From positions 1-48,934 of the forward strand of contig QMZC01000005.1 of assembly GCA_003662995.1 (NCBI GenBank): 48,934 nucleotides of DNA. The letters are read 5' to 3'. The DNA is from Archaeoglobales archaeon (GTDB taxonomy: Archaea; Halobacteriota; Archaeoglobi; Archaeoglobales; Archaeoglobaceae). Position 1 is the first letter of the stretch. Each line of letters starts with the position of its first letter. The notes beneath the pieces were generated by a model. The model made no database searches, had not been told where the DNA came from, and saw nothing but the letters and a program-made list of their open reading frames with translations. Positions 46,883 through 48,934 of the stretch are shown here, piece after piece. Both the position numbers and the translations under genes were made by a program.

Positions 46883-47464
46883 ATGAAGAAGCAGAAACAG
46901 GATTATTATTACTGGGAAGCGAAGAAGAAGGGGTATAGAAGTAGAGCAGCCTTTAAATTGCTTCAAATGAACAAAGAATTCAAGCTAATCAAAGAAAACA
47001 ACTGGGTTCTTGATTTAGGATCTTCCCCAGGAGGTTGGAGTCAGGTGGCTGTTGAACTTGGGGCCAAAGTTGTTGCTGTTGATTTAAATCCAATGAAGCC
47101 CATTGAAGGTGTGGAGTTTATTCGTGGAGACATAACCAAAGAAGAAACGGTGCAGAAGATTAAGGAGATTAGAGATTCTTTTGACGTTGTGATTTGCGAT
47201 GCATCCCCCAAGATAACGGGAAAGTGGACAATTGACCATCTGCTATCCATCGATTTGGCTAAAGCAGCGTTTAATATAGCAAAGTTGTTTTTGAAACGCA
47301 ACGGATGTTTTGTTGTCAAGGTTTTTCAGGGAGAAGAAATTCAAAAGCTGTTCAACGAATTTAAGCCTTATTTTAGATTTAAAAAGTTTCATTCACCAAA
47401 AGCATCAAGAAAGAGGAGTGCAGAGGTTTATTTTATCGGGAAAGGGTTCAAAAAATTGTTATGA
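46883..47464 (+). CDS. rlmE: 23S rRNA 2'-O-ribose methyltransferase, RlmE/FtsJ family
   Basis: A 193-residue methyltransferase. AdoMet site: VLDLGSSPGGWSQVAVELG (residues 42-60). The catalytic K-D-K-E tetrad is visible as RSRAAFKLLQ (Lys), VICDASPKITG (Asp), FVVKVFQGEE (Lys) and SAEVYFIGKG (Glu). Bacterial RlmE methylates U2552 of 23S rRNA. Archaea have one or more such enzymes; this one lacks the C-terminal TRAM domain of some archaeal forms. It ends the cluster with the RNA kinase and yjbQ. Confidence 0.93.
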   Translation: MKKQKQDYYYWEAKKKGYRSRAAFKLLQMNKEFKLIKENNWVLDLGSSPGGWSQVAVELGAKVVAVDLNPMKPIEGVEFIRGDITKEETVQKIKEIRDSFDVVICDASPKITGKWTIDHLLSIDLAKAAFNIAKLFLKRNGCFVVKVFQGEEIQKLFNEFKPYFRFKKFHSPKASRKRSAEVYFIGKGFKKLL

Positions 47465-47657
47465 AGTTGATTACTTTTTTATTATTTTCCAGCCGTAATA
47501 CTCCATTCCTTAGATGGTATGGAAGAAAGCTTGCCAAGTTTTTAACAGCCTTTGCTGGTTTTGATCATTAGCTATGAACCTTTCCCATCTTAAATTCTGC
47601 ATACAAATTTAAAACCACAACCCTTAAATTCATCTCCCATACTTATTTTAACATCAG

Positions 47658-47730
47658 GCCGCCGTGGCTTAGCTGGCAGAGCGGGTGACTTGTAATCACC
47701 AGGTCGCGGGTTCAAATCCCGCCGGCGGCT
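47658..47730 (+). tRNA. tRNA-Thr (anticodon UGU)
   Basis: A complete cloverleaf. Acceptor stem GCCGCCG pairs with CGGCGGC, the D arm is GGCTTAGCTGGCAGAGC, and the anticodon stem-loop is GGTGA-CTTGTAA-TCACC with anticodon TGT. The T arm is GCGGG-TTCAAAT-CCCGC. The discriminator base is T, usual for archaeal tRNA-Thr. CCA is not encoded. A TATA-like CCTTAAATT (47622-47630) is about 30 nt upstream. The 3' end is overlapped from the other strand by a small ORF, which suggests use as an integration site. Confidence 0.97.
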
Positions 47731-48076
47731 GATTTTCCTGAAGAATTAAACCCTTCTCCTCTAATCTCAAAAATTCACTAATAAACTCGATTAATTTCTC
47801 AGCAATGTCTAAATGCAAAGCTAATTCTAAAGTGTACTTATCTCCTTTAAAATTTAGTTCAAGCACAATAGAATTAGCCTCTGGTAACTCTGATTCCCTT
47901 ATTTTCATATCTACTTTACTGAACTCCTCCCAAAATCTAATACAAAAATCCTCCTGTCTATTTTCCAATACAACTTTGAGATTTGCTTGCATATACTTTG
48001 GATTTGCTCCAATCCCATCGGGGTAATACTTAGTCTTCTTCAACCTATAACTTTTCCCAAATATCCCAGACTTCAT
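47696..48076 (-). CDS. Unknown protein whose 3' end runs into tRNA-Thr
   Basis: A 126-residue protein of unknown function, with a basic start (SYRLKKTKYYPDGIGANPKY) and a helical rest (EFISEFLRLEEKGLILQ). A good ribosome-binding site (GAGGTGATAGG) precedes the ATG. Its last eleven residues (QPPAGFEPATW) are read from the complement of the tRNA 3' half, the classic signature of a frame reading through a tRNA. The natural stop may have been lost when an element integrated into the tRNA. It belongs to the very A+T-rich DNA right of the tRNA. Confidence 0.6.
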   Translation of the reverse strand: MKSGIFGKSYRLKKTKYYPDGIGANPKYMQANLKVVLENRQEDFCIRFWEEFSKVDMKIRESELPEANSIVLELNFKGDKYTLELALHLDIAEKLIEFISEFLRLEEKGLILQENQPPAGFEPATW

Positions 48077-48116
48077 CCTATCACCTCAGTTTTTAGTTCA
48101 ATTAGTTCATTTATAC

Positions 48117-48131
48117 GATAAATATATATAC
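48117..48131 (+). promoter_or_regulatory. Strong TATA box before the AbrB-like gene
   Basis: GATAAATATATATAC is centred about 27 nt before the ATG at 48152. This is one of the best TATA elements in the window and indicates a leaderless message. Confidence 0.6.
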
Positions 48132-48151
48132 TTTTCTACTCTTTTAACCAC

Positions 48152-48310
48152 ATGAAAGAACTATTGGGAACATCTAAAGTGACCAGATTCAACAAAATTA
48201 CATTAATCAAAGAAGTTGCTAAAGAGTTAAACATCAAAGAAGGTGACTTAATAGCTTTTTGGAAAGAAGGAAATAGAATTTACATAACTAAAGCTAAAAT
48301 AACTGAATAG
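48152..48310 (+). CDS. Small AbrB/SpoVT-like DNA-binding protein
   Basis: A 52-residue protein with the swapped-hairpin AbrB pattern: LLGTSKVTRFNKITLIKEVA, then KELNIKEGDLIAFWKEGNR and a final strand IYITKA. Such proteins are transition-state regulators or antitoxins and are common on archaeal plasmids and viruses. It is transcribed from a strong TATA box and is convergent with the next gene, its stop lying next to the other's. No toxin partner of PIN type is adjacent in the window. It may regulate the surrounding element. Confidence 0.75.
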   Translation: MKELLGTSKVTRFNKITLIKEVAKELNIKEGDLIAFWKEGNRIYITKAKITE

Positions 48311-48598
48311 CTATTCAACTAAAATTTGAATTCCATTCTTAACCAACAAAGCATTTTCATTTATCTCCTCATCAATGCTGAATGTTAGGCTTTTGGGCAA
48401 CTTAATGTTTAACCTATATTTTCCATTCTTCTTCTCCAAAAAGTTAAAACTGTATCCAGCATTCAAAAAACTCAAAATGTAAAATCTTGAAAATACCCTT
48501 TGCAAATCTTTAAACTCAAACTCTCCCCCTAATTTGGCAATCTCCACTATTATTGGCAAATAATCGAATAAAAAGCTTAATTCTTTCTTTCTCCACAT
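48311..48598 (-). CDS. Small protein of unknown function in the tRNA-flanking element
   Basis: A 95-residue protein, not recognised. It begins MWRKKELSFLFDYLPIIVEI and contains LGGEFEFKDLQRVFSRFYIL, which could be a winged-helix-like segment, followed by a strand-rich end (KYRLNIKLPKSL). The ATG at 48598 with GGGTGA just upstream is preferred to a GTG two codons earlier. It sits tail-to-tail, with no spacer, with the AbrB-like gene in A+T-rich DNA. Possibly a plasmid- or virus-derived transcription factor. Confidence 0.5.
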   Translation of the reverse strand: MWRKKELSFLFDYLPIIVEIAKLGGEFEFKDLQRVFSRFYILSFLNAGYSFNFLEKKNGKYRLNIKLPKSLTFSIDEEINENALLVKNGIQILVE

Positions 48599-48604
48599 TT
48601 TCAC

Positions 48605-48934
48605 CCTTCCTATTCTTTTTTTAATTTTTTATTGCTTAACTCACTTAAGTTTTTCTAAAAATTTTCCGCTGATGTTGCATTTTGGGGGGGGCGTTATTCA
48701 ACGTCAAACCCATGTCCCTCAAGGTGGTCAAGAGGGAGACTTCTTTGACTATACTTGATTTCAAGTATAGGGTAGTTGACCTATACTTGATTTCAAGAAT
48801 TTCATACTTGATTATCAACGGTAATTTTTAGAAATTATTTTTCACTAAAAATATTACAAATAGTAATATAGCTAATTAATCAGTAAATTGGAATTTTTAT
48901 TTTAATCTTTGTTAATGGTGCACTATATTTTTTC
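48605..48934. other. Gene-free right end with palindromic repeats
   Basis: No supported gene lies in these 330 nt. A run of eight G (48677-48684) is followed by short, frameless protein-like stretches on the minus strand (for example DHLEGHGFDVE ending near 48700), which may be remnants. The main structures are the palindromic repeats at 48749-48815; the rest is A+T-rich and continues beyond the window. Confidence 0.5.
48749..48815. repeat. Cluster of palindromic repeats (CTTGA-N-TCAAG)
   Basis: CTATACTTGA (49-58 of 48.7 kb) and TCAAGTATAG (61-70) form a perfect 10-bp inverted repeat around TT. TATACTTGATTTCAAG recurs exactly at 48782-48797, 32 nt after the first copy at 48750. A third weaker site, ATACTTGATTATCAA, follows at about 48804-48818. 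Direct copies of a palindrome at roughly helical spacing fit operator sites or replication iterons of the neighbouring element; function is inference. Confidence 0.6.

Follow-up and report, generated by a model that had tools for sequence, protein, structure and literature searches.

Archaeal tyrosine recombinases show a preference for the 3′ ends of tRNA genes, and the att sites they use may be short, with examples of 8, 11 and 13 bp and of 14 nt for SNJ2 (PMC8371274). According to PMC4158269, the most common arrangement among integrated archaeal viruses and plasmids places one repeat over the tRNA gene and the other beside the integrase gene. This arrangement is found in two elements of Archaeoglobi, the A. 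veneficus provirus AvPV1, which occupies a tRNA-Gly gene with a core of 27 nt, and ArcVen-P3, which occupies a tRNA-Ser gene with a core of 55 nt and encodes a split, SSV-like integrase (PMC10919331, PMC4158269). The locus described here lies in a host of the same group and would share the position of both att sites, but it differs from AvPV1 and ArcVen-P3 in its target (tRNA-Thr) and in its core of 14 nt, and from ArcVen-P3 in its intact integrase; in addition, its visible parts display no virion gene.

The window, that is, the whole 48,934-nt stretch analysed, is the complete contig C5 of an Archaeoglobales genome of 2.6 Mb (2,609,224 bases, 187 contigs), and it stops 1.2 kb past a tRNA-Thr(TGT) gene, read here as a 73-nt mature gene within the ARAGORN call. 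To the left, the tRNA is flanked by chromosomal sequence with an FtsJ/RlmE-like gene, for which 39 of 40 genomes gave a match; close matches to the tRNA itself were found in all 60 genomes searched with it. On the right side, positions 47732-48934 have a G+C content of 30.4%, compared with an average of 39.4% (sd 3.0) for windows of the same size, and 10 of the 955 overlapping windows (step 50) were as low. The strong A+T bias and the three small genes noted there by the sequence-only reading, namely p126, an AbrB-like gene and p97, are thus both real, and its AbrB label holds with a match exactly at the cut-off of NCBIfam, a further match to Pfam MazE (E 5e-4) remaining below the cut-off. The window most likely breaks off within the left end of a small element of integrative type, plasmid-like or provirus-like. 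The coordinates of the features are collected in the table.

Table. Features at the right end of the window, with positions in contig C5 and the evidence for each
Feature	Position	Strand	Evidence
FtsJ/RlmE-like methyltransferase gene, chromosomal left flank	46883..47464	+	Pfam FtsJ E 2.2e-62
tRNA-Thr(TGT), putative integration target, 3′ end rebuilt	47658..47730	+	ARAGORN 47657-47731
p126, putative element gene running into the tRNA	47696..48076	-	ORF
Putative attL core TCCCGCCGGCGGCT, exact tRNA 3′ end	47717..47730	+	Identical copy at C35:3323-3336
AbrB-family regulator, 52 aa	48152..48310	+	TIGR01439 E 1.1e-6
p97, putative element gene without a match in 59 relatives	48311..48604	-	ORF
Repeats of CTATACTTGATTTCAAG, the first a perfect palindrome, intergenic	48749..48811	.	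2/100 shuffles reach 3 matches
TTGTTAATGGTGCAC, inverse within the first 60 nt of C35	48909..48923	.	Longest of 266 end comparisons

At a threshold of E 0.001, the 59 relatives searched, of which 35 belong to the same genus or family, yielded no match to p126 or p97, so that the situation which would have spoken against an insertion, the same genes beside tRNA-Thr in all relatives, was not encountered. Searches of IMG/VR, a phage collection and a plasmid collection gave no match to either protein, nor did the genome_contigs database for p126, and the single-sequence structure models were poor (mean pLDDT 48.4 for p126 and 56.0 for p97). The true start of p97 may be the ATG at 48598. A TATA-like box was recognized by eye upstream of the AbrB-like gene, and the CTATACTTGATTTCAAG repeats, which are absent from the C35 part of the element, are possible operator or origin repeats.

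Since C5 ends 1.2 kb past the tRNA, the far end of the element was sought on other contigs of the same assembly. A loose search (E up to 10; 25 places listed) revealed on contig C35, with a BLAST E of 2.0, an exact copy of the last 14 nt of the tRNA gene, discriminator base included; under an iid model, such a 14-mer is expected 0.0016 times per genome. This copy was not among the eight places returned by a strict search with the 21-nt tRNA end and at most three mismatches, which were seven called tRNAs (that of the window included) and one place on C57, read by eye as an intron-containing tRNA-Trp. Identity between the window and C35 ends at once on both sides of the 14 nt, and its confinement to this core is the pattern seen between attL and attR. 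The copy agrees with tRNA-Thr(CGT) for 15 nt, compared with 14 nt for tRNA-Thr(TGT), and its strand is that needed for C35 to follow C5. The sequence-only reading had suggested looking for a repeat of the 35 nt from 47696 to 47730; a copy of the tRNA end does exist, but its core is reduced to 14 nt.

An intact integrase gene of 405 aa (C35:2047-3264, minus strand) starts 58 nt to the left of this copy and carries PF00589 (E 6.5e-28) and PF13495 (E 4.4e-8) domains. The make-up of Phage_int_SAM and PF00589 is assigned to the XerA/XerC/pNOB8 or SNJ2 families (PMC8371274), and this make-up in an intact gene fits a classical type of integrase. Left of the integrase gene, C35 encodes a ParE-like toxin and an AF2212-like protein of 66 aa, both of which exceed the Pfam cut-offs, as well as a protein of 159 aa whose ribbon-helix-helix match falls short of the cut-off. 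To the right of the 14-nt copy, C35 is conserved chromosome, with Bax1 (PDB 6p66, E 4e-179), XPB and an RFC-large-like AAA protein. The G+C content changes at the same border, from 30.7% in C35:1-3322 to 37.6% in C35:3337-20000. Probable counterparts of the second att copy and the integrase predicted to lie beyond the window were both located, side by side and next to conserved chromosomal genes. The direct repeat of the tRNA 3′ end is present at both borders, on two contigs whose link we infer, and the intact tyrosine integrase gene adjoins the copy on C35.

C5 and C35 very probably carry the opposite ends of a single element. Its length, the sum of C5:47717-48934 and C35:1-3336 with a gap of any size between them, would be at least 4,554 nt; no contig of the assembly bridges the two. 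Besides the att copy and the integrase, the integrated element at tRNA-Thr proposed from the window gains support from a 15-nt inverted repeat, TTGTTAATGGTGCAC, with one arm in the terminal 60 nt of C5 and the other in the opening 60 nt of C35. When the C5 end was compared with 133 contig ends in 266 comparisons, this was the best result, the next being 11 nt long, and TTGTTAATGGTGCAC occurred nowhere else in the 721,690 bases searched of the 2,609,224 of the genome. The motif GTGCAC, of which these 721,690 bases contain 44 copies, has one copy in the final 17 nt of C5 and three in the initial 230 nt of C35. In a control, 69 terminal 14-mers (three registers for each of 23 tRNAs of the genome) were sought in 714,781 bases outside called tRNAs, and only the ends of tRNA-Thr, tRNA-Gln(CTG) and tRNA-Val(CAC) had copies there; in the case of tRNA-Gln(CTG), an integrase gene also lies beside the tRNA. 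Contigs C68-C128 were read for the missing middle, and none of their 17-mers was common to the facing ends of C5 and C35.

This joining of the two contigs was weighed against an alternative in which an element does occupy tRNA-Thr(TGT) but C35 carries the far end of another one, inserted for example in an unseen tRNA-Thr(GGT) gene, the true attR being missing from the assembly. The shortness of the 14-nt core, the failure to find tRNA-Thr(GGT) in the assembly, and the presence in this genome of several other tRNA-linked integrases and of other copies of tRNA ends are all compatible with such a mismatch of ends. The rare 15-mer inverted repeat on the facing contig ends, the equally low G+C on both sides and the fitting orientation argue against it, however, and we consider it unlikely. 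Dispensing with an element altogether, and regarding the right end of the window as ordinary intergenic DNA, A+T-rich and peculiar to the lineage, whose small genes lie next to a tRNA by chance, would agree with the commonness of small orphan genes and with the lack of an integrase in the left part; the att copy and integrase on C35, the end repeat and the occurrence of p126 homologues in mobile-element settings make this very improbable.

A further alternative concerns p126 itself, whose position and direction, reading into the tRNA, are those expected of the int(N) part of a suicidal (SSV-type) integrase split at the tRNA; suicidal integrases of the pT26-2 type are reported from Archaeoglobales (PMC8371274). 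Yet searches of Pfam, PHROGs and NCBIfam matched p126 to no integrase family. Its homologues on contig C22 of the same genome and in the genome G257 are complete small genes that end in stop codons of their own, the latter at a distance of 7.6 kb from an intact integrase gene. The integrase of C35 is itself intact, with PF13495 and without PF16795. An SSV-type element was rejected on these grounds, and a role of p126 as an N-terminal integrase fragment is hardly credible. The preferred reading remains a single element with an unsplit integrase, bounded by C5 and C35.

The homologues of p126 were found with a profile of p126 and its weak relative from C22, searched against 392 genomes of the phylum, its own included. 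One further homologue emerged, a 98-aa protein of G257 (E 2.4e-13); in direct comparison, p126 is identical to it at 26 of 97 positions and to the C22 protein at 20 of 61. The C22 gene, which had no match in the plasmid collection, is located 1.1 kb before the end of its contig in a group of small genes; the product of one of these has 91% identity, over 53 residues, with a protein encoded by the G257 element. The G257 gene belongs to a stretch of an Archaeoglobaceae genome of another genus (G257:C22, L153:1099-10987) that resembles an integrated element, with a tyrosine integrase (PF00589, E 2e-18), a primase (PF04104, E 2.3e-15), a KAP-like ATPase and a TumE-like toxin paired with an HVO_A0114-type regulator. 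A p126-family gene near an integrase would be common to the two elements; the primase and the KAP-like ATPase are features of that of G257. The integrases of G257 and C35 gave no mutual match at E 1e-5 or 1e-4, and a search for 13-nt direct repeats revealed no convincing att site at the borders of the G257 element.

As had been noticed from the window, p126 terminates within the 3′ half of the tRNA gene: its stop codon (47696-47698) and its last ten sense codons (47699-47728, PPAGFEPATW) lie inside the tRNA, so that the tRNA gene supplies the codons for residues 117-126 as well as the stop. The reading frame crosses the att core and ends in tRNA sequence to the left of the 14 nt. When the att junction of the circle was joined computationally, the protein ended in QPPAGL after 121 aa, compared with QPPAGFEPATW after 126 aa in the integrated form; the last codons of p126 thus depend on the state of the element, integrated or circular. 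Relative to the last common motif, the C22 and G257 homologues stop about 18 residues earlier than p126. That p126 sits astride attP so that the exchange of QPPAGL for QPPAGFEPATW provides a protein-level readout of integration appears a long shot, and any meaning of this exchange is speculation.

We then considered the site without the element, together with the other tRNA-Thr genes. At 47 loci of relatives, 45 of them with a called tRNA-Thr, no match to Bax1 or XPB was obtained at E 1e-5, matches to RFC were weak only, and none of these loci presented an empty site. Synteny was followed at RlmE loci from 30 of the 39 genomes with an FtsJ match; among the loci examined, the pair of FtsJ gene and tRNA-Thr recurs in genus g7 only, with TGT in G007, G027 and G034 and CGT in G018. 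The ORF that follows the tRNA in G007 and G027 (PurH-like by eye) was rejected as the ancestral neighbor: its relative in the present genome is on C36, and synteny with these two genomes therefore gives no empty site. G001 belongs to the same genus as the present genome, and its contig stops 221 nt past the FtsJ gene with no tRNA in that interval. G001 also has TGT and CGT tRNA-Thr genes (L041:9298-9583 and L042:2590-2863) followed by about 200 bp of homologous sequence, with an MCM-like gene 1.7 kb to the right of the TGT copy.

Within the present genome, tRNA-Thr(CGT) on C9 has the same end as tRNA-Thr(TGT) and was tried as the place of the second att. This was rejected, as the tRNA gene is complete and has downstream of it an 83-aa ORF and then, 455 nt away, LysRS; the site therefore looks unoccupied. 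By similarity, tRNA-Thr(GGT) was not seen in the assembly, a search that a divergent copy could escape, nor was it called in any locus examined; it may have the same 3′ end. ARAGORN alone picked up a second, quite different tRNA-Thr(TGT) beside a tRNA-Ala(TGC) on C48 (L172:1235-1309), perhaps a contaminant contig, the contamination of the assembly being given as 3.17%. Elsewhere, tRNA-Thr(TGT) is followed in G015, after 3.7 kb, by a related integrase that is broken up into two ORFs, and in G020, after about 0.2 kb, by integrase fragments. In G032, of another genus, the stretch about 0.7-1.4 kb to the right of tRNA-Thr(CGT) (L191:6809-7507) carries an AbrB-like gene together with a toxin-antitoxin pair that has 91-95% identity to the C35 pair. 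The tRNA-Thr neighborhoods of these three genomes lend loose support to a hot spot.

Comparison of the C35 integrase with the phage collection identified its nearest relatives in two pleomorphic viruses of Geoglobus and Archaeoglobus, members of the Pleolipoviridae (records BK065156/BK065158), Geoglobus acetivorans pleomorphic virus 1 (GacPV1; 51% identity over 94% of the protein) and ThalV2 (45.5% over 96%); no match was found in IMG/VR. A 52-aa ORF of C35 also resembles gp21/gp25 of pleomorphic viruses (50-55% over 33-42 aa), and in the virus records the integrase gene lies near one end, as it does here. A related integrase, one feature of the Pleolipoviridae, is therefore present, but integrases are exchanged between elements and do not define membership alone. 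Within the 721,690 bases covered, neither the visible element parts nor 60 further contigs of the genome yielded a match to VP3, VP4 or Rep of the two viruses, and the integrase is accompanied here, in contrast to the pleomorphic viruses, by a toxin-antitoxin pair and other small genes. The element may be a plasmid, a satellite or a decayed provirus. Two other contigs encode small proteins like those of pleomorphic viruses: C84 (L238), with counterparts of gp09/gp12/gp13 and a HerA-like ATPase, and C90 (L244), with counterparts of gp15/gp16 and an NYN-domain protein.

The genome is rich in tRNA-linked elements. It has 14 PF00589 matches in all, and relatives of the C35 integrase are encoded on C3 (two), C21 and C39, so such genes are not rare here. 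Integrase genes adjoin tRNA-Arg(TCT) on C113, tRNA-Leu(CAA) on C67 and tRNA-Arg(TCG) on C144. On C158 (L087), a tRNA-Gln(CTG) gene has an adjacent integrase gene, and a copy of its end, 16 nt over three registers, is found on C104 (L258:559-574); perhaps a second integrated element is present, with one att site on each of these two contigs. A copy of the tRNA-Val(CAC) 3′ end lies outside any called tRNA near the end of C116 (L269:7364-7378).

In the mechanism that we propose for the tRNA-Thr(TGT) locus, the far end would supply a tyrosine integrase of the classical, unsplit type, which would recombine the attP of the element with the last 14 nt of the tRNA gene. Integration would rebuild the tRNA 3′ end exactly and leave the 14-nt direct repeat at the far end, beside the integrase gene. 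The p126, AbrB-like and p97 genes would form the tRNA end of the element, and the ParE-type toxin, its AF2212-like partner and the weakly ribbon-helix-helix-like gene the integrase end. Roles of these genes in maintenance and regulation are presumed, as are any functions beyond the family matches, and insertion by the C35 integrase, with an ability to excise, is predicted from the sequence.

The element is a case of a well-known kind. Among the titles and abstract openings returned from one literature library, none names an element in an Archaeoglobi tRNA-Thr. The review PMC8371274 has a figure in which targeted tRNAs are arranged by anticodon, those of Archaeoglobales among them, and tRNA-Thr may already be on record as a target. 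To the elements known from Archaeoglobi, the present locus adds one at tRNA-Thr with both probable borders and an integrase, and it hints that integrases like those of pleomorphic viruses may serve to mobilize cargo of other kinds. The orphan protein family of p126 becomes linked to mobile elements. Its tail PPAGFEPATW is translated tRNA and not a protein motif, which serves as a warning for annotation, and a gene whose end is written by its own tRNA offers a small, testable curiosity.
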